64,000 nucleotides of DNA. Source: Lachnospiraceae bacterium. GTDB taxonomy: Bacteria > Bacillota > Clostridia > Lachnospirales > Lachnospiraceae. The position numbers and the translations under genes were made by a program. The notes under the pieces are model-generated. The model saw nothing but the letters and a program-made list of their open reading frames with translations, had not been told where the DNA came from and did not search any database. Positions 3,402 to 30,740 of the stretch are shown here, piece after piece. How positions within the stretch are numbered: the first letter of the stretch is position 1; each line of letters starts with the position of its first letter. The stretch covers positions 124,001 through 188,000 of the forward strand of contig CAJTDK010000003.1 of the NCBI GenBank assembly GCA_910575105.1, given 5' to 3'.

Positions 3402-4712
3402 TCATTCTTCTGATTTCATCTCTTTCATCTCAAGCCGGTCAAAGTAAAAAGAAGGCATATACTCATCATTAAAATATTCTATTGGATTGTCAATTCCCAT
3501 CTCAAGTAACTGTTCCCTAATCTCACAGTAATAGATATTACAGATAAATATCGCACAATCCTCCGGCAATTCTTTCAGACTTTCCGGATTTTTCACCATA
3601 ACACCGCAAAACTCTGTACCCCATACAGACTTGTCATTGTCACAAGTATAAAAGGGCGGATATTTTTCACCATAGCATTTCATATAATTCCGGCACATAT
3701 TTCCTGCACCGAAAAGGACTCTCGATGAGTATTTCTTTAATCTTGTCTCTATCTCTATCTGCCATTTCAAAAAATCTGCTATCTTTTTGGACAGCCGCAG
3801 GATTTCAGGGCGGAGAAGATGCGAAAACGCTGCGGCAGTATCCCTGATATCCATGATCAACTCACCGTCAAATCCAATCTCCCGCAAGCCCCGGATCAGG
3901 TTCAGCCAATCTGTCTGTGACTCCCCCCGATATACACTGGTAAAGGGAAGCATCGCACTTTCCTGGTTCCCGTTGCAGTCTCTCATGATCACAGCTTTAA
4001 GCCTGTCCCCAAGCCCTATGATGAAGTCATACATATTCTGCCCGCATAAGCTGCACACTCCGACATCCACGCAAAAGCCGAAACGTTCCTCTCCCGCCGC
4101 CTCATTCAGCCGGTCTACCCAATCCACGGCCTCTTCCGCCATGGCACAAATGCCGCGGACTAGATGCCCGTTTATGTCCTTACATTGATTCTCCAACAGG
4201 ATACGGACATCCTGCTCTTTGGCCAGCTTTGCCAGCTCAAGATAAAAAGCTTTATTGCACTCCCATATGTCCGCGGGTGCTATTCCTGCAAATAAGGGAC
4301 GTACTACCAGATTCTTACACCTTGCCAGACCACACAGCTTTATACTTTCCTTTGCCAGATGAAGCAGCAGTCCATTCAAATCCGCATGCTTTGTATCTCT
4401 TGGCAAATAGGGGGCATATGCTGCCGGCGTATGTATTCCCTGGATTTTGCACTGCTCTAATAGCGGCAGCATTGCTTCATTCATCTTTTCCGGATTCTCA
4501 AAGATCTTTAGCCTGTCCGTCTTTTCTTCTGCCGCTTTTTTTCTTCCTATCCGCTCTAACTCTCCGGAGGTACAGCATAGCGAAAAATCTAATAAAATAT
4601 TCTTATATCCTGCCAAAGATATATTGCGAAGACCTTTATAAGGATTTTTTATGCCTACGATATTTGACGGCACGCATAATAGATTCAACTTTTTCTCCTC
4701 CAGATTAACCAT
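3402..4712 (-). CDS. TIM-barrel isomerase-like protein fused to Rossmann-like module (probable pseudoenzyme barrel)
   Basis: 436 residues. Residues 1 to about 320 are a TIM barrel homologous to the 1105-2046 product. They retain Glu in LLENQC and Asp in CVDVG, but DTGH has become DVGV, the HIHD segment has become IMRD, and the late Glu is Asp. Most metal ligands are therefore gone, so catalysis is doubtful. Residues about 325-425 are the recurring module of this cluster: VLFGAGNMCRN, CDNDKSVWGTEF, NPESL, and then IFICNIYYCEIREQLLEMGI. The gene overlaps the upstream gene by 8 bp. It may bind rather than convert a sugar. Confidence 0.7.
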   Translation of the reverse strand: MVNLEEKKLNLLCVPSNIVGIKNPYKGLRNISLAGYKNILLDFSLCCTSGELERIGRKKAAEEKTDRLKIFENPEKMNEAMLPLLEQCKIQGIHTPAAYAPYLPRDTKHADLNGLLLHLAKESIKLCGLARCKNLVVRPLFAGIAPADIWECNKAFYLELAKLAKEQDVRILLENQCKDINGHLVRGICAMAEEAVDWVDRLNEAAGEERFGFCVDVGVCSLCGQNMYDFIIGLGDRLKAVIMRDCNGNQESAMLPFTSVYRGESQTDWLNLIRGLREIGFDGELIMDIRDTAAAFSHLLRPEILRLSKKIADFLKWQIEIETRLKKYSSRVLFGAGNMCRNYMKCYGEKYPPFYTCDNDKSVWGTEFCGVMVKNPESLKELPEDCAIFICNIYYCEIREQLLEMGIDNPIEYFNDEYMPSFYFDRLEMKEMKSEE

Positions 4713-7023
4713 TATCCTTTTTTCTGCTAATTACATCTTTAATCTCTGTCGAACTTGTCGTCTCTGTATACGGAAAAAACACCAGATCAGAACCATGCTG
4801 CTGCAAAAATACCTTTTTTGAAAGCCAGGCAGGATCATCGGCATAATCACTCCCCGAGAACTGCACATCAAAATGATACATATACCATGCATCTTCCGTA
4901 TCTGGCTTATTGGCAGGAATTTCAACTGCCTCATCTACATATTTACATGCCTCAACAATCGCAAGACGTTCATCAAAAGGAATATACGGACGCGTTTTTT
5001 TACCCCGTACTACCTGTTCGTCAGTCACTACACCAACGATTAAATAATCGCACTGCTCCTTTGCCCTCCTGAATATATTCAGATGCCCGATATGAAACAG
5101 GTCAAAAACTCCCGCCACATAACCGATATGATACTTCTTGGATATGGCATCCTTCGGAGCACATGTCTGTTTCATCGGCCGATCGTAATCAAGACGCGGA
5201 TCATATACCGAAACATTTCTAATATCCATCTCCTTCAACTGCAAAAGAACATCCTCAAAAAACTTAATGCAGATAAACACTTTAAAGGGAATTTCTATTT
5301 TCTTTAAAATTTCGGGCGAGTAGATTTCTATTCCCATCAATTTTTCTCCCCATCTGTCCCCATTATTATCAACAATCCCTGCAATATCGTAATACTTGCC
5401 AAACTGTTCAATAAACCGTTCTGCATATCTTCCGGAACCAAAAAGAAAGATTTTATTACTTCCAATTCCTTTAAAAATATTTGTGAACAGGCGCTCATAC
5501 TCTTCCTGGCTATAATCCATCCTGTGTCTGTTGGAAATCATCGCCTTATAATCCCTTCGGCGCTGCTTATGATATCCCAACAATTCCTTTTCCTTTCTCA
5601 ATTCCTCCAGAAATGCGTTGCCTTTCCCTCTCCATGCGTCCTGATATTCATAAAGTTTAAAATATCTTAGAATATCCTCTCGGGGATAGATCTTCTCCAG
5701 ATCAGGACTGTCCCTGTATATAAACTCTATTGTCCGGATGAAAATGGCGTTTGCCGGAAAATTTTCTATGAAAAACTCCTGGTCGAAAAATACGAATCCA
5801 TTTTCTGTATGAAAACAGTTAATGGAAACCATATCAATGTAGCCTCGTTTTAAAATCACCCCGATATTTTCTTTTTCTTCCTTTGTTCCAAACGCGCGAT
5901 TCTGCCACTGGTCAATATTAGGATCGTCTTTTTTACGTCTTTCCCAATGAGGTTCAAACTGCTTCCAGTTCACTTCTTCATAAGCAACATGTTCCGATGA
6001 AGATAAGATGATCTTCTGAAATCTTTCAAGTTCCTGCAAAAACTTCTTCCGATCGTTTCGCAGTGTTTCCCTGAAATACTCCGTAGCAATCTGACCCTCA
6101 ATATAAGGCATCACATAAGTATCGCCCTCACGCGTTCCTTCCACTACAGGAACGTCATGATTTCGCAAGTATTCCGTATTCTGAAACAGGGCATCTATTT
6201 TTTTTATCCCCTCCTTATACAAGGCTTTTCTGAACACTCTCGACGGACATTTTATTATTGTAGCCAATGCCTCCTTACGCCCCCTGTCCCCCTGCACGGT
6301 AACCTGATCAACTTCCGAAAGTACGCCATCAACAGTACATTCGATCAAAAAAGCGTTTGCCATCGGATGAAACATATGATTTTCCATCAATGTTTCATAT
6401 AATCTCTCCTCCTCCAGATACAGCGTTCCCGGGTTTTGGTATTGAGGAAATATCCTCACGTCAATTGCTTCATTTGGTATGTAATCTTCTGCAATTAAGA
6501 TCTGGGGGCGCATAAGCTCCGGCATGACCGCATAAAACTTGCATTTTTTAAAGCCTGCATGCGACAGCATTTTTTCGTATTCTGCCTTTGCGTATGCACG
6601 CCCGCCATTTATCTTTTGCCGTTTCTCACTCACCTTAATATAACCATCAATCCCGTCAAGGACATGTCTCGAAAAGGAATCCTGATCACCGCAAAAATAA
6701 CGAATAGCAAGGCGGTTCTCTGCTCCTATTAACAACTTTCCCGAAGCTTTGAGCAGACTCTTCAGTCTCCTAAGCATCTCCTCCGGCATCTCGCTTCTTT
6801 CGATAATGCCTGCTGCCACAATATAATCAAATTTACCGTTGATTGTATGCAGCTGCATCGTATCTGCTTTTACCGGATCGATCCCTTTTTCTTTCATTGC
6901 ATCAAAAAGTACTTCGCATTCCAGTTTTCCGCCTGAAATGAAAAGTACTTTTGAATCCTTCTGAAATTCATACCAACTAATAAGTGCTTTGGGTAAGTCC
7001 TTTATGATTACATCTGAAGCCAT
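4705..7023 (-). CDS. Four-part protein: methyltransferase-like, kinase-like, Rossmann-like module, cytidylyltransferase
   Basis: 772 residues, ATG preceded by GGAGG. The N-terminal part (about 24-150) looks like a class I methyltransferase (KVLFISGG, FDYIVAAGIIERSEMPEEM). Residues about 250-470 resemble an aminoglycoside-phosphotransferase-type kinase (VFRKALYKEG, YVMPYIEG, and ENGFVFFDQEF as the metal-binding segment). The shared module follows from 523 (IFLFGSGRYAERF, VDNNGDRWGEKL, YSPEIL). From about 632 comes a CTP:phosphoalcohol cytidylyltransferase (GVFDLFHIGHLN near 640, TSSTEIK at the end). It could phosphorylate and CDP-activate a small alcohol for transfer to a glycan. The substrate is unknown, and the kinase call is by pattern only. 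Confidence 0.7.
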   Translation of the reverse strand: MASDVIIKDLPKALISWYEFQKDSKVLFISGGKLECEVLFDAMKEKGIDPVKADTMQLHTINGKFDYIVAAGIIERSEMPEEMLRRLKSLLKASGKLLIGAENRLAIRYFCGDQDSFSRHVLDGIDGYIKVSEKRQKINGGRAYAKAEYEKMLSHAGFKKCKFYAVMPELMRPQILIAEDYIPNEAIDVRIFPQYQNPGTLYLEEERLYETLMENHMFHPMANAFLIECTVDGVLSEVDQVTVQGDRGRKEALATIIKCPSRVFRKALYKEGIKKIDALFQNTEYLRNHDVPVVEGTREGDTYVMPYIEGQIATEYFRETLRNDRKKFLQELERFQKIILSSSEHVAYEEVNWKQFEPHWERRKKDDPNIDQWQNRAFGTKEEKENIGVILKRGYIDMVSINCFHTENGFVFFDQEFFIENFPANAIFIRTIEFIYRDSPDLEKIYPREDILRYFKLYEYQDAWRGKGNAFLEELRKEKELLGYHKQRRRDYKAMISNRHRMDYSQEEYERLFTNIFKGIGSNKIFLFGSGRYAERFIEQFGKYYDIAGIVDNNGDRWGEKLMGIEIYSPEILKKIEIPFKVFICIKFFEDVLLQLKEMDIRNVSVYDPRLDYDRPMKQTCAPKDAISKKYHIGYVAGVFDLFHIGHLNIFRRAKEQCDYLIVGVVTDEQVVRGKKTRPYIPFDERLAIVEACKYVDEAVEIPANKPDTEDAWYMYHFDVQFSGSDYADDPAWLSKKVFLQQHGSDLVFFPYTETTSSTEIKDVISRKKDNG

Positions 7024-7050
7024 CTGAAAACCTCCGTATATCTTCCCGTA

Positions 7051-7539
7051 TTATTTACCTAACCCATATAATATATCTTTGAGCGATACAATCGGAAACG
7101 TAATCTTATCCTTTAAATTGTTAGATATTTCATTAAAATAATATACTGCTGTAACAATCATCGCATCTGTCTCCGGCAAATCATCTTCTGGCGAATATAC
7201 TTCTATATCAGAATAAATAGCCATTGCATTTCTATCAACAGCATATTTAATCTCAACATCACAGTCTTTCAGCTCTTCCAATAAACATCTCCCCACATGA
7301 CTTAATCCATAAACGGCGACTGATTTATAACCTCTTTTTTCTAAATATTCTTTGATGTGTCTGCCTTCTTGTTTTGTTTTCATCCACTTATTCATAAGTA
7401 AAAATAAGTCAAGATTTTTATCCGTTAATTCTCTACAGTTATCTATTGCCTTGCATGTAATCTTTTCCATTACTGCCGCCCCACCAACAGTACCAATAAA
7501 CACGCCTAACATCACTGATAAAAAATTGTTTTGTTTCAT
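7051..7539 (-). CDS. Stand-alone Rossmann-like module with N-terminal membrane segment
   Basis: 162 residues, ATG preceded by AGGAG. Residues about 5-25 (FLSVMLGVFIGTVGGAAVM) form a hydrophobic segment able to anchor the protein. A helical linker (LFLLMNKWMKTKQEGRHIKEY) leads to the cluster's shared module: VAVYGLSHVGRCLLEEL, VDRNA, YSPEDDLPETDAMIVTAVY. The linker plus module closely resembles the C-terminus of the glycosyltransferase at 14590 (LLDKWM, SIIIYGMGKM). With no catalytic domain attached, it may act as a membrane tether or organiser. No function is established. Confidence 0.65.
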   Translation of the reverse strand: MKQNNFLSVMLGVFIGTVGGAAVMEKITCKAIDNCRELTDKNLDLFLLMNKWMKTKQEGRHIKEYLEKRGYKSVAVYGLSHVGRCLLEELKDCDVEIKYAVDRNAMAIYSDIEVYSPEDDLPETDAMIVTAVYYFNEISNNLKDKITFPIVSLKDILYGLGK

Positions 7540-7548
7540 GTTGTACTC

Positions 7549-8193: not shown

Positions 8194-8203
8194 ATCTTAT
8201 AAC

Positions 8204-8477
8204 TCTCCATATATTTCATACATTCTTTCTATCCCTACAATAATACCATACCGCCCATGCTACCCAAACTGTTCCAGCTTTGTTGAATCCAGCACCACGT
8301 ATTCGATAGGTGTATGTTCTTTTTTCTCATTTTTATTGGAATTTCTCACAACACAGAACACCCCGGCCTTTCTTGCCAATATATCTGCAAATCCCGCAAT
8401 CGTTACTCTCGAAGATGGATGTTTCTTTCAATGCATTTCTCAAATCATCTCTATATGTCTCAATTCGCAGATACATA
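8204..8477 (-). pseudogene. Degenerate coding remnant, family not recognised
   Basis: No intact reading frame is present, but segments in two frames read like protein: MYLRIETYRDDLRNALKETS, then VTIAGFADILARKAG continuing to EYVVLDSTKLEQFG, ending at a stop, with RYGIIVGIERMYEIYGEL after it. The pieces are collinear on the minus strand and interrupted by a frameshift and a stop. I cannot assign a family. It sits between the methyltransferase and the TarI/IspD-like gene and probably once encoded part of the cluster. Confidence 0.4.
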
Positions 8478-9209: not shown

Positions 9210-10496
9210 TTATATATAATTAAACTTTTCTAAAAAGTCTGTCATCTGCAAATATTCCTTAATTCCTAAACTTCCCATTCTTTCTTCCATATCGCGATAA
9301 GCTTTTGAGCCTGGTACTACTGCAAGCAAATACAGAGAATTAGGATAGCAATCATGAGCCTTTTCTATCTTTACCACTTTTTTATCTGCCACAAGATCAT
9401 TCTTCGGCTCATCAGATACCGCAAAACATCTAATCTTACCATACAATCCTTCATTATAAAGAATCCGCATTGCAATATCACCCTGCTTACCCGCTCCGTA
9501 AATAATAACTCCCTCCGATTCCAAAATTTGGACTTTCACTTTTCTTTTCTTTTCTATAAGACTGTTACAATACTCCTCTGGTGCTTTTAAAAGCTCCCGT
9601 ATCCAGTTATCTATATATCTGTTGTATTTGATATAAGCCTTATACTTCCCATAATCTTTCCGAATCTGACTTGTAAAGTCATATTTATATTTATCATCAA
9701 TCCTGTAAAATGTTCCTTTTAACCTGACAAGCCTCGTCGAATAGACATATGGCAGTAAATACTCCTGTCTTCTTGCTTTTATCATCTTTTCGAGATATTC
9801 ATATTCTCTTGTCATAGCCAGCATTTTCGATGTACTTTTTACGGAAGCTTCAGGATTATCCTGCCTGTAATAATAAAAGGCCTCATTTAACCACATTGCC
9901 CTTTTCGCATAGAAACATGTCTGCATCCAGAATCCATTATCCTGATATGACGCCCCGAGACTTTCATTAAAAGAAATGTTATTTTGAAGCAGAAAATCCT
10001 TTTTATATATCCCTGTCCAGATATTCATAAAAAAATCAAAAAATATATTTCTTTCATCTTCACCAAGAGTCTGATCATATAAAGCATTTAAATTATTATC
10101 ATGTACCCGTTTCTGATAATTCAATTTTTCATACCAATAATAGGCATCCGATTTAACAAAATCCAGATTATTGTTCGAAGCAGTTTCGTATAACGTTTCA
10201 TACATCTCAGAAGCTATCTTGTCATCGCTCTCAACAATCCCAATATACTCCCCCACTGCAAGCCTTAATCCCGCATTCATTGCCGCACCATAACCTTCAT
10301 TCGATTTATGCAGCACTTTAATACGCGAATCCAACACCGCATACCGTTCTATAATCATACCTGACGAATCTGTCGAACCATCATCAATACAGATGATTTC
10401 TATATCCTTCATAGTTTGAGTCATGATGCTGTCCAGACACTGACACAAATATTGTTCCACATTATAGACAGGCACAATAATTGATACTTTCGGCAT
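9210..10496 (-). CDS. Family 2 glycosyltransferase with C-terminal Rossmann-like module
   Basis: 428 residues from the ATG at 10496 (GAGGAG seven nt upstream; the open frame extends 10 codons further into the upstream gene). The GT-A domain shows VSIIVPVYNVEQYL, IICIDDGSTD and VESDDKI, the nucleotide-sugar-binding pattern of GT2. About 300 residues in, the shared module begins: GVIIYGAGKQGDIAMRIL, CFAVSDE and YLLAVVPGSKAYRDM. The donor and acceptor cannot be told. It follows the LicD gene directly and is probably co-translated with it. Confidence 0.85.
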   Translation of the reverse strand: MPKVSIIVPVYNVEQYLCQCLDSIMTQTMKDIEIICIDDGSTDSSGMIIERYAVLDSRIKVLHKSNEGYGAAMNAGLRLAVGEYIGIVESDDKIASEMYETLYETASNNNLDFVKSDAYYWYEKLNYQKRVHDNNLNALYDQTLGEDERNIFFDFFMNIWTGIYKKDFLLQNNISFNESLGASYQDNGFWMQTCFYAKRAMWLNEAFYYYRQDNPEASVKSTSKMLAMTREYEYLEKMIKARRQEYLLPYVYSTRLVRLKGTFYRIDDKYKYDFTSQIRKDYGKYKAYIKYNRYIDNWIRELLKAPEEYCNSLIEKKRKVKVQILESEGVIIYGAGKQGDIAMRILYNEGLYGKIRCFAVSDEPKNDLVADKKVVKIEKAHDCYPNSLYLLAVVPGSKAYRDMEERMGSLGIKEYLQMTDFLEKFNYI

Positions 10497-10516: not shown

Positions 10517-11713
10517 TCAAAGCCAATATGCTTCTATGTTATGTGCTAATGTACGTTTTTCTTCTGGCGGCCATTCTTCCCAGCCTTTCCCATAAAGATT
10601 GTCCAGATACTCTTGATATCCTTGCGGAATATTCACCATAATATCCTCAAAAGGCATTCGTAAGGTATTTTCATACACTAAGCGCGTTGTACAGTCTTTT
10701 TCATAATATCCCGTACCTAAAACGCCTACAAACTCTGAATCGTCAAATCTATATGTATCAAAAGAAGACTGTTCAGCATTACATATCTTCCTGAATTTAT
10801 CCATGTCTCCACTGCACTTAAAAAACACCTCCCGCCTTCTTGCATTTATCTTTTCATATCTTCTGATATAGGCAGTTCTCTCTTCTTCATCTTTGGGAAG
10901 ACCAACAATCGGCAATATTTCCACATTTGCTCCAACAAAATGATTGTAAAATGGATATTTTTCAACAAGCAATGTGCTCTTATCTGCCAAACGCGCAAAT
11001 TTATAGTGCCCCCACACATCATTCTCATCGTCAACAATCTGGCACATTAATTTATCGTTCTCCCGAAACAACTCCAAAAACCTCTCATAATCAACATCTG
11101 GCATAAAGACATCAATATCATCATCCCATGGTATAAATCCTTTATGACGGATTGCTCCTAACATGGAGCCTCCGCTTAACCAATACCGAAGATTATTTTT
11201 TACACAAAATTGGTCAAAATAAAAAAGGATATCCTTTTCTATCATTTTTAATTCATCCATCGTAATTCTCTTTAATTTTTCTGTCTTTTTCCTGCAGCCG
11301 GTATTTCCCCAATCATACAAACAGTATATTTTATCTCTAGGTATATCTGTAGTATTGACTATCTTTTTTATTTCATCGGCACAATCCTCAGACGCATAAA
11401 GAATTATCCAGTTTTCATCTATTCCCCTTATCCACTCATCCACCGAAAAAATCCTGATGTATGAATCAGTCTTATTGAAATAATGGGAGAGCGCATGTTT
11501 AACACTTCTCCGAACCCTTTCTCTTCTTTCCTCTTTTTCCGATATATAACATTCAACCCTATATCCTCGATTCTCCAGCAAAGTCCTGATAGCAAATGAA
11601 TGCTCGTCTAAACCCAAAATTGCCAGCTTATCAGAGTAATTTAATTTCCCCTCTTTTATTAAAGCTGCCAGTTGTTCATCCATCTGCTTTAAAATACTAT
11701 AAAAATATTCCAT
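10517..11713 (-). CDS. LicD-family phosphotransferase with N-terminal Rossmann-like module
   Basis: 398 residues. Residues about 25-135 are a version of the cluster's module (LAILGLDEHSFAIRTLLENRG). The rest is a LicD domain: SGGSMLGAIRHKGFIPWDDD, with the nucleotidyltransferase Asp cluster, then DVFMPDVDYERFLEL. LicD proteins transfer phosphocholine or similar phosphoalcohols from CDP-linked donors to glycans or teichoic acids. Several CDP-donor synthesis genes surround it. The donor alcohol here need not be choline, because no choline uptake or kinase gene is nearby. Confidence 0.85.
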   Translation of the reverse strand: MEYFYSILKQMDEQLAALIKEGKLNYSDKLAILGLDEHSFAIRTLLENRGYRVECYISEKEERRERVRRSVKHALSHYFNKTDSYIRIFSVDEWIRGIDENWIILYASEDCADEIKKIVNTTDIPRDKIYCLYDWGNTGCRKKTEKLKRITMDELKMIEKDILFYFDQFCVKNNLRYWLSGGSMLGAIRHKGFIPWDDDIDVFMPDVDYERFLELFRENDKLMCQIVDDENDVWGHYKFARLADKSTLLVEKYPFYNHFVGANVEILPIVGLPKDEEERTAYIRRYEKINARRREVFFKCSGDMDKFRKICNAEQSSFDTYRFDDSEFVGVLGTGYYEKDCTTRLVYENTLRMPFEDIMVNIPQGYQEYLDNLYGKGWEEWPPEEKRTLAHNIEAYWL

Positions 11714-14589: not shown

Positions 14590-16203
14590 TCAGATGCCGG
14601 ACTGCTCTATAACTTCAGATAGTGATACAATCGATATGGACGTTTTCCCTTCCAGTTTCTCCTTAATCTTTTCTGCATCGTACACCGGCGTAATGACAAT
14701 ACAATCGGCTTCCGGAATATCCTCTTCTCCCGTTATAACAGGAAAATCCTTAACCATATTAAATGCTCTTCTATCAATTGCACAAACAATACAAATACCA
14801 CTGCCCTTTATATCTTCTAACAAATGATGGGTCATTTTCCCCATTCCATAAATTATAATACTTCTTATTCCCCGTTCTTCAAAATATCTGGCTGCACTTC
14901 TTTTATTTTCATGCAAAACCATCCATTTATCCAGTAATTGGTAATAACAAATATACATCTCAATGTTAATTTTTTTTGTTTCCAGCGCCTTTATGCTTTT
15001 TCGTTTTTCCAAATCTAATTCTAGTGTTTCCTTTATTTGTTTTGCAACAAGTTCTGATATCTCTTCCATCCATGCTTTCCCTATACGCCCCAAAGAAAAA
15101 TATTCCGCTCTTTTGCACGCTTCTTTCGCCATTTCACATCTTAATTTATCATCCCGAAGTAAACGAATAATCTCATTCGCCATCAACTTTTCCTCATCTG
15201 TGAAATGACCTGTATAAAACTCCTTAATATTCGGAACTAATATTCCTCCTTCTCCTTGCATTGGAATTGTTATATTTTTTTGATAACTTAAAATATTAAG
15301 CTCTTCTCTTATACCTCCGGGACAATCACATGCCACTACAGGTACTCCCGCACTGAACGCTTCCAAAACAGCGCACGGCATTGCTTCTAAGTGAGATGTC
15401 AAAGTAAATACCTTTGCTTTTCCCAGATAATCCTGGACATTTGCGACACTCCCCGGCATCTCGACATCTCCAGCCAGTCCAAACTCTAATACAAGTTTCT
15501 CCAGTCTGTTTCTCAATTTCCCCTCGCCTAATATGATTAACTTGCTATCCGGACATTTTTTTTTCACCATTTTGAATACACGTATTATATGCCATTGCCG
15601 TTTTATACTATGCATTCTTCCTATTGCAATTATTATATTTTCTTTTTTATTACTCCCTTTAACAACCATGGAATGAACAGGATTATATATAGTTCTTGTA
15701 ATATGATTCTTATCGCCATAATGCTCTATCCAATCTCTTTTACAATATTCCGACGGAAACGTAATTAAATCTGCAAATTGATATAGATTCTTAAAAGTAT
15801 GTTCAGACCAATCAATTGTTTTACAACATTTCTTATATTCAGAAGTTACATTGTGAGTTGTAAGGATAACTTTCTCATGCTCCTTTGACATTATATTAAG
15901 ATAATTTGCAAACTGCATAAAACTAATTGCAATATCAATCTGATACTGCTCTTTTAAGACTTTTAATTCCCCAATCTTTTTCTCCATCGCATCCTTTGAT
16001 GATATCTTTCCATCTAAATTGTTCAGCGAATACGAAAAATCAACCAGTTTTCCCTTAAAATCATATAATATATCGCGCGATAAATCCGTAAATATAATGA
16101 CATCATGCCCTTGTCTGCCAAAAAACATACTCAGATCTGCTGCACTTCTCTCTGCACCACCGGCCTGCAATGATGTCACAATAATTCCTATCGTATAATT
16201 CAT
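14590..16203 (-). CDS. Family 4 glycosyltransferase with C-terminal Rossmann-like module
   Basis: 537 residues from the ATG at 16203. GT-B fold: TSLQAGGAERSAADLS at the N-terminus, IIAIGRMHSIKRQWHII at the start of the donor domain, and the EX7E segment within LEAMPCAVLEAFSAGVPVVAC. After residue 400 comes a helical linker (QLLDKWMVLHENKRSAARYF) and the shared module (SIIIYGMGKMTHHLLEDI, CAIDRRA, CIVITPVYDAEKI). Linker and module are close relatives of the stand-alone protein at 7051. The transferred sugar is unknown. Confidence 0.85.
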   Translation of the reverse strand: MNYTIGIIVTSLQAGGAERSAADLSMFFGRQGHDVIIFTDLSRDILYDFKGKLVDFSYSLNNLDGKISSKDAMEKKIGELKVLKEQYQIDIAISFMQFANYLNIMSKEHEKVILTTHNVTSEYKKCCKTIDWSEHTFKNLYQFADLITFPSEYCKRDWIEHYGDKNHITRTIYNPVHSMVVKGSNKKENIIIAIGRMHSIKRQWHIIRVFKMVKKKCPDSKLIILGEGKLRNRLEKLVLEFGLAGDVEMPGSVANVQDYLGKAKVFTLTSHLEAMPCAVLEAFSAGVPVVACDCPGGIREELNILSYQKNITIPMQGEGGILVPNIKEFYTGHFTDEEKLMANEIIRLLRDDKLRCEMAKEACKRAEYFSLGRIGKAWMEEISELVAKQIKETLELDLEKRKSIKALETKKINIEMYICYYQLLDKWMVLHENKRSAARYFEERGIRSIIIYGMGKMTHHLLEDIKGSGICIVCAIDRRAFNMVKDFPVITGEEDIPEADCIVITPVYDAEKIKEKLEGKTSISIVSLSEVIEQSGI

Positions 16204-16224: not shown

Positions 16225-17688
16225 CTAATGTCTTGAAAGAATATTTTTCCAGAATTCAAGATGAGATTCTATCCGGCTCTTAGGATATACTACGTCATGT
16301 GCCAGTTTGCCCATTAGACTTAGTCGCTCCCGATGATTCGCCAGATATTCAATCCGTTCTGCCATCGCACGGTAATCTCCTATAGGAACTATATAGCCGT
16401 TCTCACCATCCGTGATATCTTCTCTGACTCCTGACGTTGCCGTAACAACAGGTACTGCTCCGTTCCCCATCGCCTCAATAATACTATGGCACCGACCCTC
16501 GTAATCTGCAACATTCACACATACATCCTGTTTTTTCCAAAAAGAAGGAATTTCCTGACGATCTATTTCCCCCAAAAGACGCACTTTCTTTTCCAAATGA
16601 TTGGAAGCGATAAAATCCGCCAGCTCCTGACGTGCCACACCATCGCCTGCAATATCCATTACAAAGCAAATCTCCCTTGCTACGAGCACTTGCACTAACT
16701 TTATTAATAAATCCATCCTTTTCTGAGAATATTCCATCCTTCCCGCATAACCAACATGAATAGGAAAAGATACATTTTCCGTATATTCACGTGTAAGTGT
16801 CTCTTCACACTCAAATGGAACACACATGGAATAGACCTTCTTTGGCTCTATTCCCATTTGAATCAAATCTTTCATGATATCTTGGCTTACTCCAATAAAA
16901 GCATCAGGAATCTCTTTATAATCCATATATGCTTTATATATATCCTTACTTGCGCCCCTGATTGTTGTAATAATTTTAATCATTTCCGGATAGCAGCACT
17001 TTATCAGATATGGCGCTAGCATTGTATTGTCAGGCTGTGTTGTCACCACCTTACATGGCATCTTGTCTATTATGGTATCAATTACATTTAATATAGAATC
17101 CACAGAAAATATTTCCTGCTCATCAATGTATAGCATGCAATTTTGCAATAACGGAGGCACCTCATATTCATCTCTTGTCGCAACGACATATATGTTTTCT
17201 TTTCCATCCTTTATCAATGCTTCACAGATATCTTTCGTCCATGCCTGAATACCGCCTAATGAAAAACCATTATATGAAACGAACAGTATGCTTTCTTTCT
17301 CATAATTATTCGTTTTCACATTCTTATATATATATTGTTTTATTTCTTCATTTGCCTTAAGAGCCTCGAGACACAGTTCATTATAATGCACTTCGTTTTT
17401 CATATCATAATTCCAGACTTGCTGTAACGCCCCTCTTATTTCATCAGCAATATTCTCGTCAGCAACAGCAATGCATATATCTGCATCTGGAAAATTCTCT
17501 ATTCTCTCTGGGGGAGATATTCGATATCGCCCTATTTTCATTCCCCATTTACTAGAATCTGTGTCTAAAATAGCAACAATCTCCATGTTACTGCAAGATT
17601 TTAACAATTTGCATATCTTTTTACAACGTTTTCCTGCCCCATACAAAACTAATTTCCGAATCACCATTTTGTCCTTCCCATTTGCCAA
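16225..17688 (-). CDS. Family 4 glycosyltransferase with N-terminal Rossmann-like module
   Basis: 487 residues, or 480 if the ATG at 17667 (GGAAGG just upstream) is used. Residues about 10-110 are the shared module: KLVLYGAGKRCKKICKLL, LDTDSSKWGMKIG, SPPERIENFPDADICIAV. The GT-B domain follows: FVSYNGFSLGGIQAWTKDI, VGYAGRMEYSQKRMDLL, and the EX7E-type stretch DYEGRCHSIIEAMGNGAVPVV. It is placed head to tail with the next GT4 gene, with a 22-bp gap. Substrate is not assignable. Confidence 0.85.
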   Translation of the reverse strand: MANGKDKMVIRKLVLYGAGKRCKKICKLLKSCSNMEIVAILDTDSSKWGMKIGRYRISPPERIENFPDADICIAVADENIADEIRGALQQVWNYDMKNEVHYNELCLEALKANEEIKQYIYKNVKTNNYEKESILFVSYNGFSLGGIQAWTKDICEALIKDGKENIYVVATRDEYEVPPLLQNCMLYIDEQEIFSVDSILNVIDTIIDKMPCKVVTTQPDNTMLAPYLIKCCYPEMIKIITTIRGASKDIYKAYMDYKEIPDAFIGVSQDIMKDLIQMGIEPKKVYSMCVPFECEETLTREYTENVSFPIHVGYAGRMEYSQKRMDLLIKLVQVLVAREICFVMDIAGDGVARQELADFIASNHLEKKVRLLGEIDRQEIPSFWKKQDVCVNVADYEGRCHSIIEAMGNGAVPVVTATSGVREDITDGENGYIVPIGDYRAMAERIEYLANHRERLSLMGKLAHDVVYPKSRIESHLEFWKNILSRH

Positions 17689-17754: not shown

Positions 17755-18570
17755 CTAATACCTCAACCCCGAATGGAAGAAGGTTCCTCGAACTTCAGCA
17801 GACACCTTATCTGCACAGGCAATCAATTTTCTTTTAAAATTCCTTTCTTCCACGCCAACTCGGTAAAAATCACTACCTCCAACATTGAGATTAAGCAATT
17901 TGGTTTTACATCTTATCAATTCACAAAAATATGACCATTCCCGCTCTATCCACAATAGTTGCATTGCATCGTACATCGGAAGTTGTTCTAAAATTGTTTT
18001 TAAATCAGATAGTGTTTCAAAACAATAAATATGATTTAGATATTTTTTCTTCACTTTTTCTTTATACTCTTTTGCCTCCGTCAAAAGACTAAATTCTACA
18101 TCGCTATACCTCTGAGCTATATTTTCAACTACTTGCTTAACGTATACGGAAAAGGAAGTGCTAAAAATCATTACTTTAATCCCATCTGTTCTAACTTCCT
18201 CCTTATTGAGGAGATCATATTGTATAAGTTTTTTATCTTTTGCTCGTAATCTTTGTGATTCTACCGGACATATTTCGTATTTTGCCATATTATTTTTTGT
18301 AGTTTTTCTGCACCAATATATTCTATCTTTATCTACTCCCATATTCTGTAATTGAATTAAAATTTCAACCGCATATTTATAAGAAGTAATAATAATATCG
18401 TCACTATATTGTTGTATTTCTGAAGGTGACTTCACCATATAACCTTCAAATTGAGTTCCCCACTTATCTTTATCATTATCTACGACAAATAAAATGTTAT
18501 ATTTATTTTTTAGTTGCCGAATAATAACTTTTCCGGCTTTCCCTATTCCAAATACTATTAAATTACACAT
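17755..18570 (-). CDS. Rossmann-like module fused to a truncated GT-B glycosyltransferase
   Basis: 271 residues from the ATG at 18570, which has AGGTG upstream; the frame is open further but without a ribosome site. The N-terminal module is clear: LIVFGIGKAGKVIIRQL, VDNDKDKWGTQFEGY, SPSEIQQYSDDIIITSYKY. The remainder (VMIFSTSFSVYVKQVVENI, LLNLNVGGSDFYRV) looks like the N-terminal half of a GT-B enzyme. The protein ends 30 residues later, without the donor-binding half, and none follows in any frame before the next gene. It is either a truncated remnant or a protein that works without that half. Confidence 0.6.
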   Translation of the reverse strand: MCNLIVFGIGKAGKVIIRQLKNKYNILFVVDNDKDKWGTQFEGYMVKSPSEIQQYSDDIIITSYKYAVEILIQLQNMGVDKDRIYWCRKTTKNNMAKYEICPVESQRLRAKDKKLIQYDLLNKEEVRTDGIKVMIFSTSFSVYVKQVVENIAQRYSDVEFSLLTEAKEYKEKVKKKYLNHIYCFETLSDLKTILEQLPMYDAMQLLWIEREWSYFCELIRCKTKLLNLNVGGSDFYRVGVEERNFKRKLIACADKVSAEVRGTFFHSGLRY

Positions 18571-18624
18571 TGTTTCACCTATAATATAATCTTTTTTTAT
18601 ATTAGCCTTTATTACACTATTCAT

Positions 18625-19941
18625 TTAAAAGAAAAGCACTATCTTACTTCTATTTAACATTTCAGTATATTTTTTATAATTGATGTATCTGCTAGATATA
18701 AGGATCAACTGCCCATTATCCAATATTTCTTCCGGTTTTCTAATCAAATGTCCACTTATCACCTGTCCATACTTTTTTTCATCTTTATCAATTACACATG
18801 TTACCTCTATATTATGTTGTGATAAAAAATCCAATAGTGATTTTCCGTTTCTTCCTGCTCCCCAAACCACTATCTGCATATCTTTCTCTAAATAAATTTT
18901 AAGCAAATCTATTACTTTTTTACTATTCATGTTTAAATATCCCGACAAGATGGTTCCATTTTTATACCATCCTGTAGAAAATTCTAAATCATAAAAATTT
19001 TGTAACTGTATTTTAATATACTCATTAATTTTATGATAATATTCAAAAGATAAATTTATTAATCTACCAAGCCCTTCGTTTCGTAAAAAATCATAAAACT
19101 CACGTGCCCTCTTTTCTTGTTTTGTATTTAGTAAAGCTCCCTGCAAGGCAAAAAATAGTGTGCAATAATAATGTTGGAATACTTTGACAAACACTCCTCT
19201 TTGCACGAGTTCTTTTCCTAATTTTTCCATGGCCAAATAAGTACACATAGGATTTCTATTGTAAGAAATTCTTGTCGGGACACGATGATCCCGTGCGTAA
19301 ACCATTACACGGCTATCATCCAACATAATTATTTTTTCAGCTAAAAATAACGCAATATTTACAAAATAAACATCATTGGCGGACGATAAATCTTGAAATA
19401 CTATGTGATTAGACTCAATAAAGCTTTTTTTAAATAATTTATTACAAGGACTTGATGACCATCTTGTATATTCAATTGGTTCGTTTTTTTGCACAGAAAA
19501 TGAATTGTAGCAATATTTTTCTCTAAATTTGTCACTATGTTGAATAAACTTCTTTTCATATATACATCCACTCGGTACATGCTGGTACTCAAATATCACA
19601 ATGTCCACATCTTGCCTTTTCATCACATTATATAAAGCTTCCAACATTTCTTCTTCAAAAATATCATCTCCATCTAAAAAAGAAAGGTATTCGCCTTTCG
19701 CTTCACGCACTCCTATATTCCTAGATCTCGCCGCACCTAATCTTTCTTTATTAGAAAAAATCCTAATACGGTTATCCTCACTTTGAAACCGACGAAGTAT
19801 ATCTGTTGTAGTATCAGTAGACGCATCATCAATACAAATCAACTCATACTCTTTATATGTTTGTTTCTGTATGCACCGTAACGCTTCATCTAAATATTTT
19901 TCCGCATTATACAATGGCATTATAATTGAAATGCTTATCAT
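18625..19941 (-). CDS. Family 2 glycosyltransferase with C-terminal Rossmann-like module
   Basis: 438 residues from the ATG at 19941 (AAGGTG nine nt upstream); a GTG four codons earlier is an alternative. The GT-A pattern is SIIMPLYNAEKYLDEAL, LICIDDASTD, ARSRNIGVREAKGEYLSFLD and DGDDIFEE. The last 90 residues are the module: QIVVWGAGRNGKSLLDFL, VIDKDEKKYGQVISG, RKPEEI and ILISSRYINYKKY. The segment is very AT-rich compared with the right half of the window. Confidence 0.85.
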   Translation of the reverse strand: MISISIIMPLYNAEKYLDEALRCIQKQTYKEYELICIDDASTDTTTDILRRFQSEDNRIRIFSNKERLGAARSRNIGVREAKGEYLSFLDGDDIFEEEMLEALYNVMKRQDVDIVIFEYQHVPSGCIYEKKFIQHSDKFREKYCYNSFSVQKNEPIEYTRWSSSPCNKLFKKSFIESNHIVFQDLSSANDVYFVNIALFLAEKIIMLDDSRVMVYARDHRVPTRISYNRNPMCTYLAMEKLGKELVQRGVFVKVFQHYYCTLFFALQGALLNTKQEKRAREFYDFLRNEGLGRLINLSFEYYHKINEYIKIQLQNFYDLEFSTGWYKNGTILSGYLNMNSKKVIDLLKIYLEKDMQIVVWGAGRNGKSLLDFLSQHNIEVTCVIDKDEKKYGQVISGHLIRKPEEILDNGQLILISSRYINYKKYTEMLNRSKIVLFF

Positions 19942-19979: not shown

Positions 19980-21224
19980 TTAATCACTACATATTACATA
20001 ATTTCTAAATCCATTCATCTCTAAAACTTTTATCATTTCATTCTGCCATTTTTCCCCTACCGCAATAATCACTAACGCCACATCTCTATAATGTACTAGA
20101 TCTGTGATATTGCGAATCACTTTTCCATGGAATTTCATTGTACTATTGTTCACACTTGTCACTGCCACTTCATAATCCATAATGCCATAATACTCCAATA
20201 CGTCAGCAACTTTTTCACCATAACTGCCAGCCCCATATAGAATAATTCTTTCGGCACTTTTTATCTTATTTATGTCTTCATCTGTAATACATTCTTGATA
20301 CAAAGGTTTTTTTTCTATAAAATAATGATAAAAATAGCTTGCTCTTTTACTTGTTTCTAACAAATCTCCCATATGCTCCCCTTGCGTCGTTTGATATATT
20401 CGATTAATATCAGAATGCATCATCCTGAAATATTTTTCTATCCATACATCCGTTTCTCCCGTATTCTCGCTTCTGTCCCATATATCCAATTCGCGCAAAA
20501 ATTGCAAAATCGCTCCCGGTAAATATATTCCCTTTAGTGGTGCTGTTACAAGAGATTTTGCACGGTATCTTCTTTTATATAATATATCTGGAATACACAT
20601 AACCCTCTCTGCAACCATATAAAAAGCAAAAACACTATCTGAGTTATAGCGCACACCTTCCGTCCAAAACAAATCATTTTCCACAAAAAACTTTTTATTA
20701 ATAAAATTCATATAAGTATTTCCTGTAATGTCATGATTTTTGAAATATAATGCAAAAATTTCTGGCCCCTTATATATACCTTCATATTTTCCAGTTCTAT
20801 GATATCTATTTATTCTATCTCCATTCCATTCCAAATCATCATCCCAAAATGTTTCTCCCTCAAAACTCAGAATATCTAACCTATATTCTTCGGCACACTC
20901 ATACAACTTTGCCAGTCCGCCTTCTACCAACAAGTCATCCCCATCAATTACATAAAGATACTTCCCCCTCGCTGCTCTGCAGCCAATATTTCTGGATGAT
21001 CCTGCTCCAATATTTTTTTCATTTATCAAAACACGTACGCGTTCATCTTGTGCTTCGTATTTTTTAAGTACTTCCACAGAATGGTCTGTTGAAGCATCAT
21101 CTACACAAATCACTTCAATTTCCTTTTCCCGTTGAATTAAAACACTGTCCAAACATTCTCCTATATATTTTTCAATATTATAAACGGTTATCACCACAGA
21201 TATATCTATTGTATTAATCGCCAT
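19980..21224 (-). CDS. Family 2 glycosyltransferase with C-terminal Rossmann-like module
   Basis: 414 residues, ATG with GGGAG upstream. The GT-A motifs are SVVITVYNIEKYIGECL, VICVDDASTDHS, GSSRNIGCRAARGKYLYVID and DGDDLLVE. From about residue 315 the shared module begins (RIILYGAGSYGEKVADVLEY, HGKVI, VALVIIAVGEKWQNEMIKVL). Its catalytic domain resembles that of the 18625 gene, and the pair may have arisen by duplication. The sugar substrate is unknown. Confidence 0.85.
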   Translation of the reverse strand: MAINTIDISVVITVYNIEKYIGECLDSVLIQREKEIEVICVDDASTDHSVEVLKKYEAQDERVRVLINEKNIGAGSSRNIGCRAARGKYLYVIDGDDLLVEGGLAKLYECAEEYRLDILSFEGETFWDDDLEWNGDRINRYHRTGKYEGIYKGPEIFALYFKNHDITGNTYMNFINKKFFVENDLFWTEGVRYNSDSVFAFYMVAERVMCIPDILYKRRYRAKSLVTAPLKGIYLPGAILQFLRELDIWDRSENTGETDVWIEKYFRMMHSDINRIYQTTQGEHMGDLLETSKRASYFYHYFIEKKPLYQECITDEDINKIKSAERIILYGAGSYGEKVADVLEYYGIMDYEVAVTSVNNSTMKFHGKVIRNITDLVHYRDVALVIIAVGEKWQNEMIKVLEMNGFRNYVICSD

Positions 21225-21919: not shown

Positions 21920-23061
21920 CTATTTCCTTTTTGGTATTGCATAACATACTGTTTCTGAATCTGATAAAAACCTATAATGTCTTAAATAAATCTTATACTC
22001 TTCATTTAGTTGCGCCATCATCTGTGGTAAATATATGAAATCTTCTAAACTATGATAAGTCGAAATTGCTAATATGGGCTTTTCTTTTTTTATAATTGTT
22101 TCAGCCCCCATTAGCGCCTTTCTTTCGGCACCTTCTATATCCATTTTTATAAATGTAACCTTTTTATTCCCTAGAATATGATCTAAACTATCAACCTCTA
22201 TGCCGTCCTTTGTCTCTATATTTACAATTCGACTACTCCCCGAACCAATACTATCAAAAGATAATCGTGTATGACTATCCCAACATCCAATATTATATAA
22301 CTCTACATTACGAAATTCTTCCGCATTTAAACTTAATTGAGAAAAAACATTATTATCTGCCTCAAAACCGTAATATGCCATCCATTCTCCCTCTGTCCGT
22401 TTAGCATATTCACACATTGTGTCACCTATAAATGCGCCACAATCAACAAAACATTCTTTATCTGATAAATGTATGATTTCTTTATCAAAATACTGTTCGT
22501 TTTCATCATCAGTAATGTCTGCTAAATACTTAGTATTTCTAGAAATACGATACTTCAGTAATCCCTCAAAAACTCTTCTCGACTTTTCATCACAAAACAG
22601 TCTATAAGTAATATTTATATCGTGTATTCTCTTCACAATAAATTCATATGGTGTAGGATTTATTTGCATATTTCCAAATGTAAATTCTGTAATATCTTCT
22701 TCTGATATATCCATATCTATCAACTGCTTTTTTATAATATGTGCTGCTCCCGATGCAATAACGATTAATATCCCTCTTGACATATTTTCTTTGTAGCAAA
22801 TGTCTAATTCATCTATTCCACTTATAGATATACCATGAAACATCTTATTTTTTTTTGAGTATCATTATCTATAACACACCTGATTTTATTTTCCATATTA
22901 TTTTTATAAAGAAACTTCCATACTAATTCGGCCGTCCTCGCAGATCCAAATAATATTATATTTTCAACACCCGATACTTTTCTTCTACAACTGTCTAAAT
23001 ATTCTTTTACACCATCTTTCATATTCGCCACATTAATTTGAATGTCTATATCTTGTTTCAT
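21920..23061 (-). CDS. FkbM methyltransferase with N-terminal Rossmann-like module, split by frameshift at A9 (candidate phase-variable gene)
   Basis: Two frames join. ATG at 23061 gives the module start (NIILFGSARTAELVWKFL, CVIDNDTQKK), then runs into a stop. The second frame gives MFHGISISGIDEL, IVIASGAAHIIKKQL and then an FkbM methyltransferase (FVDCGAFIGDTM, FIKMDIEGAERKALMGAE). Adding one base to the nine A residues at 22848-22856 (T on the plus strand) gives a continuous protein of 380 residues with the usual module sequence. As read, the gene is off. It overlaps the upstream epimerase stop by ATGA. Slippage or a sequencing error would look the same. Confidence 0.75.
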
Positions 23062-27549: not shown

Positions 27550-27571
27550 AATGTTTTCCCTTTCCCACCAG

Positions 27572-28318: not shown

Positions 28319-28343
28319 AATTCCTCCTTCAAAAATCTTCATC

Positions 28344-29660
28344 CTATTTATTTGCTCCAAATAATGCATCGAAATTCACCCGTTCAAAAACCTCCAACAT
28401 ACCGCCGCGCGTAGCATTATAGATTTTAATACCATGTGAATCTGCATAATTCTTTGCAATTTTATAGCACGTCACCATGTCTTTTTCCACTTCGTTTTCT
28501 TCATATTTGTAATTGACCATATCTTTTTCTTGATCAGGCATGAAATGGTTGTTTCTACTTCCCTGCACATAATTGCAATCCACACCAAGTAGATATATCT
28601 CTTTAAATCCAAAATAAACTGCCAACTGTATGCATGTATATACTACTGTCGCACCACCGAATATCTTTTGACAAACATCTTCTGAAAACATCAAACTGTC
28701 CGTATTTTCTGTCAGCCAACGAAACGCATGGTGAAATAAGTAAATATTATCATGTTTATCATTCAAACCTTCAAGTATATCGGGAAGAAATGTCAAGTCA
28801 CAAGCATAACTTAGTATATCTTTCTTGTGATTTTCCCAAAACAACCCATCTGTAACAACAAAAACATTTGGTTTCCATGCACTTTTTAAGAGACATATGG
28901 AATTCACTCCAATACAAAACTCATTATTCTTTCTTAGAGTTTCCAAATCAAAGGGACTCATACTTGGACCCGTTGCAGTAATAAAACATCTTTTTCTGTC
29001 TTGAAACAAGTTTTTAAACTTCTCTAGTTCCTCATGATAATATATTGGTAAATCATCAGAATATCCCAGCATATCCACGCTTACATATCTCTTAACTAAA
29101 TAAGCGTCCTTCAAATTGATTTTCCTTACTGCAATCAAAACTTCCTCTGTGCCATTCATTTTATTCAATTCTTTTAATACAAAATTCGGATACTCCCTTT
29201 GTAGCCAATCAACAATCTCATCATCTCCGTTTGCTGGTGTAATACTAACTTTCGAGTCTGTACACAAATACTCATAAAGCATTAATGAGAAGGCGTTTAA
29301 TCCATAAATTACATATTCTTTCCCTTGCTGTTTAAAATCTTTATAACATTCTTCAAATTTGCAATAACTATTCGTGTTAAATTCTGATGGCATATTCACC
29401 ACGGGCGTAAATTGAAAAATATTCTCTTCAATCAGTTTATTTATAATCATTTTACAATGAAATGGTGATATAATAATGTAGCAATGCATATATTTCTTTT
29501 TATATTCATTTAAACTTATAATTCGTTTTCCGCAAAAGTCTCTTCCTATTTTTTTATCGCTTGAATCTATGAATACCACAACATTCTCTGCGCCTAAATA
29601 CTCCAATACTTTTTTCCCTCTGTGTCCTGCTCCATATATAGCATATTTTACTTTTTTCAC
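28344..29660 (-). CDS. MptE/DUF115-like (Maf-related) protein with N-terminal Rossmann-like module
   Basis: 438 residues. The N-terminus has the module (KYAIYGAGHRGKKVLEYL, FIDSSDKKIGRDFCGKRI), and a second, weaker copy follows (EYVIYGLNAFSLMLYEYL). The C-terminal half has the DUF115/MptE pattern: CFITATGPSMSPFDLETL, GVNSICLL, VFVVTDGLFWENH, EIYLLGVDCNY, KIYNATRGGMLEVF. The DUF115 fold is shared by the flagellin-glycosylation Maf proteins and some sialyltransferases. With a CMP-sugar synthetase next door, it is a good candidate for the matching transferase (inference). Confidence 0.75.
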   Translation of the reverse strand: MKKVKYAIYGAGHRGKKVLEYLGAENVVVFIDSSDKKIGRDFCGKRIISLNEYKKKYMHCYIIISPFHCKMIINKLIEENIFQFTPVVNMPSEFNTNSYCKFEECYKDFKQQGKEYVIYGLNAFSLMLYEYLCTDSKVSITPANGDDEIVDWLQREYPNFVLKELNKMNGTEEVLIAVRKINLKDAYLVKRYVSVDMLGYSDDLPIYYHEELEKFKNLFQDRKRCFITATGPSMSPFDLETLRKNNEFCIGVNSICLLKSAWKPNVFVVTDGLFWENHKKDILSYACDLTFLPDILEGLNDKHDNIYLFHHAFRWLTENTDSLMFSEDVCQKIFGGATVVYTCIQLAVYFGFKEIYLLGVDCNYVQGSRNNHFMPDQEKDMVNYKYEENEVEKDMVTCYKIAKNYADSHGIKIYNATRGGMLEVFERVNFDALFGANK

Positions 29661-29675
29661 TAATTGCTTCCCTTC

Positions 29676-30740
29676 CTATTCCGCAATACAATACAGAACT
29701 GTCTCATCTTTGGTCATTGAGTAATGTCTCAGATATAATTTATATTCCGGCACATAACTCAATATCAATTTTGGTATTTCCCATATGTCCTCTTTATTAT
29801 GGTACACACAAACTGCCAGCTTAGGCTTATATGTTTTTATAATTTTTTCCGCGCCTTTCAAGGCATTCTTTTCTGCTCCTTCTACATCCATTTTAATAAA
29901 AGAAACTTTCTCATGAATCAAATTGTCCAGTTTGTCCGCTTGAATTGTGATTTGTTTTTCGGTTGTTTCCGACCTGCTGCCACTTACATGAGAAGCTCCA
30001 TTTAACCCTGAATCAAAAAACAACTGTTCCTGTTTATTCCATGCTCCGAAAGGCAACATCTCATATTCGACATCTAATTTTTCCAGTGTTTTTAAACATT
30101 TCTGTCTATTCTGTGGATCTGGTTCCAGTACAAATATTTTTTTATGTTTTTCTGTCCATTTCACAAACATAGCAGATGTTTGACCGTCAAAAGCCCCTAC
30201 ATCAACAAATACTTCTTGCTCTGTCTTATATTTTTTCAATTCTGGCAAATCAAAATATTGTATCTTGTTTGCATCATCAATCATCTTTCCTGCATCTATA
30301 ATCAGTTCATCCGATATTTGATACTCTTTTAACTGACGATATATTTCCTCATGATATAATTTTGTAGAAATAATAACCGTCATATCTTCATTCTTTTTAA
30401 TCCAGTCATCAAAATGTAAAGTCGATAACTCCCCATTATTTGTTCCGCACTTTCTCAAATCATTATCTACAAAACAATAAAAATCAATGTCTGGATTACT
30501 ATCTACAATACTTTTTCCCCAAATCCCGCCCCCAAAGATACATATTTTTCTGTTCGCAATAACTGCTTGGTTTAACTTTTCTATAAATTCCCTGCCCCCG
30601 GAAAATGTTTTTATAACATTTCTCAAACTTCCTATATTGCCCGTCAAGCTATACGCCAGTCTGTTAATAAATACTTCTTGAGAAACCGTATCAGCAAGCC
30701 TGTCATATATCAATTTAATTTCATTCGCAAAAATATCCAT
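29676..30740 (-). CDS. FkbM-family methyltransferase with N-terminal Rossmann-like module
   Basis: 354 residues. Module at about 70-165: KICIFGGGIWGKSIVD, CFVDNDLRKCGTNNG, MTVIISTKLYHEEIYRQLKEY. Then the FkbM methyltransferase: FVDVGAFDGQTSAMFVKW, FVLEPDPQNRQ, SFIKMDVEGAEKNALKGAE, ELKLY-like LYLRHYS near the end. It shares its whole architecture with the frameshifted gene at 21920-23061 and is intact. O-methylation of a sugar is the usual role of the family. Confidence 0.85.
   Translation of the reverse strand: MDIFANEIKLIYDRLADTVSQEVFINRLAYSLTGNIGSLRNVIKTFSGGREFIEKLNQAVIANRKICIFGGGIWGKSIVDSNPDIDFYCFVDNDLRKCGTNNGELSTLHFDDWIKKNEDMTVIISTKLYHEEIYRQLKEYQISDELIIDAGKMIDDANKIQYFDLPELKKYKTEQEVFVDVGAFDGQTSAMFVKWTEKHKKIFVLEPDPQNRQKCLKTLEKLDVEYEMLPFGAWNKQEQLFFDSGLNGASHVSGSRSETTEKQITIQADKLDNLIHEKVSFIKMDVEGAEKNALKGAEKIIKTYKPKLAVCVYHNKEDIWEIPKLILSYVPEYKLYLRHYSMTKDETVLYCIAE

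Follow-up and report, generated by a model that had tools for sequence, protein, structure and literature searches.

A Rossmann-like module recurs on the glycan-assembly enzymes of a Lachnospiraceae bacterium and may serve in their association

How the glycosyltransferases and tailoring enzymes of polysaccharide pathways find each other and the membrane is largely open. CoA_binding_3 (PF13727), found in WbaP and in CapD/PglF-type dehydratases, is, like the module described here, an accessory Rossmann-like domain on glycoconjugate enzymes. The 2024 report on WbaP ascribes most of the dimer contacts to this domain; a screen on the domain pointed to UMP, UDP, and UTP as potential stabilizing ligands and to UDP-Gal as a destabilizing one, and the full-length enzyme was inhibited by UMP (PMC10942596). 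Related domains are PglD_N (PF17836), the UDP-sugar-binding domain of the PglD/NeuD acetyltransferases, and the NAD domain of Rex. Here we describe a module, very probably of the same branch, that recurs on the proteins of a glycan cluster in Lachnospiraceae bacterium GCA_910575105.1 (contig CAJTDK010000003.1, positions 124,001–188,000 of the forward strand; this whole stretch of 64,000 nucleotides is called the window).

A first-pass annotation of the window had pointed to one common segment in twelve unlike glycan-cluster proteins and, as a further case, in a split gene. A leave-one-out profile test recovered a homologous module of ∼80 residues in 11 of the 12 named genes. The remaining one, a LicD gene, gave no HMMER match and is a candidate only, probably a diverged case. 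The split gene contributes two parts of one further module, which lie in different frames. The copies and the segments associated with them are as follows, with E values from the leave-one-out test unless another source is given.

3444..3731, reverse strand: C-terminal module, plus a few adjoining residues, of a TIM-barrel (AP_endonuc_2) protein; E 1.6e-16
5173..5466, reverse strand: module, internal in a 772-residue protein that matches methyltransferases weakly in its N-terminal part and has CTP_transf_like at the C-terminal side; E 7e-9
7057..7332, reverse strand: module of the near-standalone 162-residue protein 7051–7539; E 3.8e-7
7312..7431, reverse strand: W-linker leading into the standalone module; used as one of 15 linker-profile seeds
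7468..7524, reverse strand: hydrophobic N-terminal segment of the standalone protein, a likely membrane anchor; Kyte-Doolittle 19-residue mean 2.04 at residue 6
9213..9521, reverse strand: module, C-terminal on GT2, Val-Ser replacing Asp-x; E 0.0068, weakest of the 11
11291..11641, reverse strand: candidate diverged module, N-terminal on the LicD protein; hhalign probability 82.8 over 75 columns
14602..14871, reverse strand: module, C-terminal on GT4; E 7.1e-5
14857..14946, reverse strand: W-linker ahead of the GT4-fused module; linker profile E 8.7e-10
17374..17667, reverse strand: module, N-terminal on GT4; E 6.5e-12; PglD_N 23.0 bits, cut-off 23.4
18286..18573, reverse strand: module, N-terminal on a 289-residue, truncated-looking protein; E 1.3e-18
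18628..18885, reverse strand: module, C-terminal on GT2; E 1.4e-10
19983..20261, reverse strand: module, C-terminal on GT2, Val-Thr subtype; E 8.6e-6
22697..22852, reverse strand: split module, second part, in the FkbM open reading frame (other frame); profile columns 37–86, E 0.013; hhalign 70.1, columns 40–80
22852..22965, reverse strand: split module, first part, in the open reading frame 22825–23091; profile columns 4–39, E 1.2e-5
29376..29660, reverse strand: module, N-terminal on an MptE-like protein (Pfam MptE-like); E 8.3e-10
30267..30560, reverse strand: module, N-terminal half of an FkbM methyltransferase (Pfam Methyltransf_21); E 2.5e-5

The 289-residue protein (17758–18624) looks truncated because it is 56% identical to residues 1–255 of a 483-residue relative (L086:1552–3000). 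The FkbM-type gene at 21920–23060 has a frame break near an A run within its module, either a mutation or an assembly error. A second module considered in gene 28344 was rejected by hhalign profile comparison.

The module profile built from the first survey (46 stretches of DNA, with L033 dropped, since its contig equals one of G399 in length, and L034 never counted) aligned with the Rex NAD domain over 80 columns (hhalign 99.1), with PglD_N over 75 columns (99.0), and with CoA_binding_3 over 72 columns (98.2), whereas the controls SDR and PGDH reached 82.3 across 30 columns and 70.8 across 27 columns. The copies are homologous to each other and align near full length with these three families. 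Both points argue that the modules form, with high probability, one family in the PglD_N/Rex/CoA_binding_3 branch of Rossmann folds, as the first-pass annotation had supposed; the short control alignments speak against a mixture of unrelated Rossmann families. A resemblance to PglD, also proposed there, holds as kinship, whereas that to sugar C-methyltransferases comes down to weak Pfam matches. Methyltransf_14 (PF08484), the C-terminal domain of the latter enzymes, scored 19.8 and 18.6 bits on two modules (cut-off 23.5), and their other domains were not seen in those two window proteins.

No Pfam model covering the module was found; Pfam names the partner domains, and in scans of 13 window proteins the module itself drew weak matches below cut-off to PglD_N, Methyltransf_14, CoA_binding, and TrkA_N. 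With PglD_N (cut-off 23.4 bits), the two best modules scored 23.0 and 21.2 in the protein scan, and in a six-frame search two modules came just above the cut-off (23.6 and 24.0), the other window modules being lower or absent. Partner scans against Pfam and NCBIfam covered 47 representatives from 77 partner components. Among these 47 module proteins, NCBIfam NeuD_NnaD matched 15, the most of any model, and Rex models matched up to 8. The best PDB profile match was 3nkl (E 5.2e-10), presumably a CoA_binding_3 structure; Rex (2vt2, E 2.6e-9) and VioB matched as well, as did numerous NAD(P)-binding proteins. Two existing names were rejected for the module: Pfam C2185-like_N (3 of 47 representatives and 1 of 26 segments at E 0.04, none in the genome's two loci described below) and PHROGs phrog_24523, which has no function attached (4 of 26 segments, best 9.3e-5). 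We found no description of the module in the open-access library searched. The branch of the fold is already known; what appears to be new is the family, along with its bare copies and its preference for assembly enzymes.

The module bears a mark of its own. Tyr, Phe, or Trp directly precedes the glycine loop in 313 of 319 pooled copies (195/199 in the first set and 118/120 in a replication set of 20 additional stretches from the Lachnospiraceae family), against 0 of 21 Rex, 2 of 9 PglD_N, and 1 of 13 CoA_binding_3 sequences. For the comparison-family profiles, 26, 10, and 29 loci were drawn on; translations came out empty for 4, 0, and 2 of them, respectively. Rex has the G-x-G loop, the Asp, and the K-x-G pattern in common with the modules. 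It differs in its aliphatic pre-loop residue (21/21), in a proline at column 64 (14/18, compared with 12/199 modules), and in its DNA-binding domain, none of which was listed in the Pfam scans of the 13 window module or candidate proteins. PglD_N differs in its partners, there being no acetyltransferase partner in the window proteins, and in its uracil-side Asp, which is missing from nearly all modules. PF13727 gave no match to the 13 window proteins up to E 1, with a CapD-like 619-residue protein as the positive case (1.8e-12). Its D-D motif is present in 15 of 16 scored members (0.94), whereas modules have D-N/S. The carriers of PF13727 named in the WbaP report are large initiating transferases or dehydratases with membrane helices, not GT2, GT4, or FkbM (PMC10942596). 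Two CoA_binding_3 matches in the genome of the window, G000:C4:311140–311643 and G000:C11:135232–135735, lie in 619-residue frames with identical scores; the former frame is CapD-like and lies near a contig end, and the pair is possibly a repeat or an assembly duplicate.

The enzymes carrying the module are mostly those that assemble the glycan. Selecting the survey loci via their modules inflates the absolute frequencies (200 of 703 genes in the first survey, 121 of 292 in the replication set). To sort enzymes into classes, we used iterated profiles started from window genes rather than Pfam matches of each protein. In the first survey the module was present in 46 of 65 GT2, 14 of 27 GT4, 20 of 25 FkbM, and 10 of 25 radical-SAM proteins, compared with 0 of 42 SDRs and 0 of 30 IspD/CMP-sugar-type nucleotidyltransferases, the CMP-sugar set (24) lying entirely inside the IspD set (30). 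The union of GT2, GT4, and FkbM had it in 80 of 116 cases, against 0 of 73 precursor enzymes, a set made up of SDRs, sugar nucleotidyltransferases, and HisC-type aminotransferases (one per set) and leaving out the TagD and TIM-barrel classes (Fisher 2.7e-25). Inside the span of module genes, the counts were 80/92 for transferases and 0/22 for precursor enzymes, and the replication set gave 40/54 and 0/22. The partners use unlike donors, namely nucleotide sugars and, for FkbM and radical-SAM proteins, S-adenosylmethionine (SAM); therefore, the module is not simply each enzyme's donor site. Flagellin glycosylation was rejected as the setting, since no flagellin-like N terminus was found among the first-set genes with one simple motif, a weak test.

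In the genome of the window, the presence of the module is all-or-none by locus. The window profile gave 29 matches at E ≤ 0.1, with 13 in the window locus (both parts of the split gene included), 11 on contig C8 in a second locus (∼141–155 kb), and 5 elsewhere. A broader profile, built in part from these two glycan loci, had all 23 of its matches at E ≤ 1e-6 inside them. At the C8 locus, the partners are matches to RgpF, Gly_transf_sug, WbsX, DUF4422, NKWYS, and Radical_SAM, plus others. When Pfam matches were paired by hand with module positions, a module gene was found for 5 of 5 GT2 matches inside the two loci and 0 of 26 outside (31 in all), and for 2 of 3 GT4 matches inside and 0 of 18 outside. 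The four FkbM matches of the genome are gene 29676, the broken gene, a module protein on contig C1, and a 699-residue frame without a module match. The locus-wise pattern and the transferase preference lend indirect support to a common pathway-level role, which the first-pass annotation had suggested.

Beyond this genome, 44 of 150 genomes of the Lachnospiraceae family had a match at 1e-8 and 22 of 150, the own genome included, had at least three; across the phylum, with at most 13 candidates scored per genome, 96 of 398 genomes had a match at 1e-6. Both counts may include Rex, and the phylum matches are partly Rex, as three that were compared fall on Rex places.

The sequence of the module hardly tracks the locus. 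In the first set, the mean BLOSUM62 score per site was 0.631 for pairs from the same locus (777 pairs) and 0.628 between genera (17,620 pairs); the replication set gave 0.678 versus 0.622. The nearest neighbor came from the same locus for 17 of 200 modules, compared with a mean of 8.4 and a maximum of 14 in 20 shuffles. The same-locus excess is small but real, and far under what a locus-specific code would lead one to expect. A private address code per locus is therefore not supported, nor is, in that form, a tag for one particular assembly, as first proposed for the window: sharing a locus makes modules scarcely more similar than coming from different genera, and any contact between modules would not discriminate loci. 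Recent local duplication is not favored as an origin either, because a strong same-locus signal is missing. The partner class leaves a real and somewhat clearer trace (0.710 versus 0.624, above 200 of 200 shuffles). Its main sources are the TIM-barrel (3.97) and TagD (2.65) fusions, apparently orthologous over the whole protein; GT4, FkbM, and standalone modules show a small excess. The signal is close to nil or nil for GT2 (0.62 versus 0.60) and radical-SAM proteins (0.55 versus 0.59). Inheritance of the module along with the enzyme class was rejected.

The module also occurs nearly bare. The protein of gene 7051 consists of a hydrophobic N-terminal segment, a linker, and the module. A linker profile from 15 seeds matched 30 proteins at E < 0.01, namely the seeds, 3 further short proteins that lack a hydrophobic start, and 12 larger ones in which the linker stands straight before a C-terminal module; it matched none of 674 module-less proteins (of 995). 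Modules of this linker subtype are closer to each other (1.53) than to the rest (0.54). A bare module with a likely N-terminal anchor is present in 11 of the 39 loci holding at least four modules, so that an anchored hub as a universal part is not supported. These anchors were chosen by eye with Kyte-Doolittle means of 1.25–2.78. For the larger, fused module proteins the threshold was stricter, at 2.0, and 1/186 and 1/108 of them exceeded it. A radical-SAM protein from another locus (L030:4831–6573) has two tandem N-terminal modules and is a natural case for module–module contact.

The nucleotide pocket, with its glycine loop and ribose-type Asp, is partly kept. In the first set, G6 is conserved in 98%, G8 in 86%, the third glycine in 56%, and Asp30 in 84% of the modules; at least three of four pocket features are present in 185 of 200. 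Asp at column 30 is found in 265 of 320 pooled modules and in all scored Rex (24), PglD_N (10), and CoA_binding_3 (16) sequences; in about one-sixth of the modules it is replaced, mostly by Val. Val-30 occurs in 24 of 200 modules, 11 of them on GT2 (for example, 9213–9521 and 19983–20261), and this subtype may bind something else or nothing. Column 31 is mainly Asn, Ser, Lys, or Arg in the modules (D 3/200, E 1/200), whereas 7 of 10 PglD_N sequences have D. In TmRex, adenosine is held by Asp115, Ser116, and His157, with Val88, the residue before the loop, among those lining the site (PMC6125430). In Pcryo_0637, Asp40 is placed near the ribose hydroxyls and Asp41 anchors the uracil, equivalent to Asp35 and Asp36 in PglD (PMC8040287). 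In our own alignment, these residues correspond to module columns 5, 30, and 31. Judged by these residues, binding of a nucleotide by the module is plausible and a PglD-like uridine site less so. Of the ligand-binding pocket that the first-pass annotation had considered, a part is thus retained.

From the family and its distribution, the preference for transferases, the bare copies, and the pocket residues, we infer membrane anchoring, module–module contact, a ligand, and gating. The module may be an interchangeable association module in glycan assembly with a retained, perhaps regulatory, pocket, to which we assign a probability of roughly 0.37. Module-bearing transferases would meet through module–module contacts near the membrane, and in Lachnospiraceae a small bare module with a likely membrane anchor would often take part. 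The retained glycine loop and ribose-type Asp could bind a nucleotide that stabilizes or gates the contact. A bolder form of this proposal, which we regard as unlikely, makes the Rossmann domain a universal plug. Its carriers would join a membrane-tethered line with the small anchored bare module as the hub, and enzymes could be swapped across loci and species without a private address since the plug would be identical everywhere.

Several observations weigh against association. TagD-like cytidylyltransferases carry the module in 6 of 13 cases, all within proteins of 753–792 residues, and so do 6 of 14 TIM-barrel relatives of gene 3402. With TagD, TIM-barrel, PGDH, and HAD proteins added, the wider precursor class stands at 12/102 against 80/116 for transferases (p 1e-18); in the replication set it stands at 0/26 (p 6e-11). 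LicD proteins have the module in 0 of 6 and TupA ATP-grasp proteins in 1 of 4 cases. No anchored copy was present in the stretch examined for 28 of the 39 large loci, and the anchored copy reaches a Kyte-Doolittle mean of at least 1.6 in only 7 loci. Anchored and fused linker-type modules co-occur in 4 of 56 loci (Fisher p 0.06), at least two of them from the same genus, which is only suggestive. The pooled same-locus excess (0.645 versus 0.618) was matched by 5 of 300 label shuffles, and was reached by 3/300 without the linker subtype and by 7/300 inside it. Finally, the dimer contact of WbaP is reported to be almost wholly a swapped β-hairpin (PMC10942596). We weighted the association reading down because of this hairpin contact and the TagD and TIM-barrel exceptions.

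Three other explanations rank below association. The one placed next, which we consider possible but doubtful, is a nucleotide sensor without scaffolding, in which each module sets the activity of its own enzyme via the same nucleotide or nucleotide sugar, so that the pathway is throttled together. A like throttling has been proposed for the WbaP domain, for which UMP, UDP, and UTP were potential stabilizing ligands, UMP being an inhibitor of the full-length enzyme (PMC10942596). The conserved Asp30, which in our alignment falls on ribose- or adenosine-contacting residues of PglD-type enzymes and Rex, fits such a sensor, and a sequence that hardly follows the locus is what one common ligand would predict. 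However, hardly any module has at column 31 the base-side Asp seen in uridine binders, the third glycine and Asp30 are imperfectly kept, and the bare modules with a hydrophobic N terminus would be left unexplained. A gene-pool effect ranks lower and appears improbable. According to it, module transferases travel as exchangeable Clostridia cassettes with no common pathway function, and many copies are relics. The modules do resemble samples from one shared pool, since their sequences reflect the locus little and the partner modestly, and some window genes are broken or truncated. Against this stand the SDRs and sugar nucleotidyltransferases from these loci, which lack the module (0/73 and 0/22), the pocket features kept by most modules, and the linker-type bare modules, which are a recognizable subfamily.

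Last in rank, and likewise improbable in our estimate, is an acceptor grip, a repurposed diphosphate/ribose pocket that would hold a shared lipid-diphosphate-linked acceptor and so act as a common handle on the growing chain. Most carriers work on the growing glycan and use differing donors, which would suit such a grip. So would the aromatic residue at column 5, which aligns to the adenosine-lining position of Val88 in Rex and could mean that the ligand is not a nucleotide. However, strong hydrophobic segments are nearly absent from the fused proteins, lipid-linked acceptors in these loci are an assumption, and we know of no homologue that binds a lipid-diphosphate-linked acceptor.

The association reading, like the sensor, suggests that the surface-glycan enzymes of a gut-type bacterium share a part that links or controls their assembly line. 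A single domain of ∼90 residues that marks assembly enzymes and also occurs as a bare, likely anchored copy is a directly testable handle on this organization. The module could further serve to recognize glycan-assembly genes with unnamed catalytic domains. It also extends, by a family that has no Pfam model, a branch for which the WbaP report described a regulatory role in 2024 (PMC10942596).

Other genes in and around the cluster gave further observations. In gene 29676, the PDB profile match 2py6 corresponds to the methyltransferase half; a relative of this protein occurs in three plasmid records, one of which covers at least 80% of the protein. Two adjacent, clearly similar proteins at 30783–32710, the first matching TupA-like ATP-grasp, are an apparent tandem duplication. 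After the glycan cluster, 36160–39601 holds what we take to be two ATPase-like genes with probable nuclease tails, maybe mobile or selfish elements. At 40504–41838, a presumed TagD-like cytidylyltransferase is apparently fused to an oxidoreductase-like domain.

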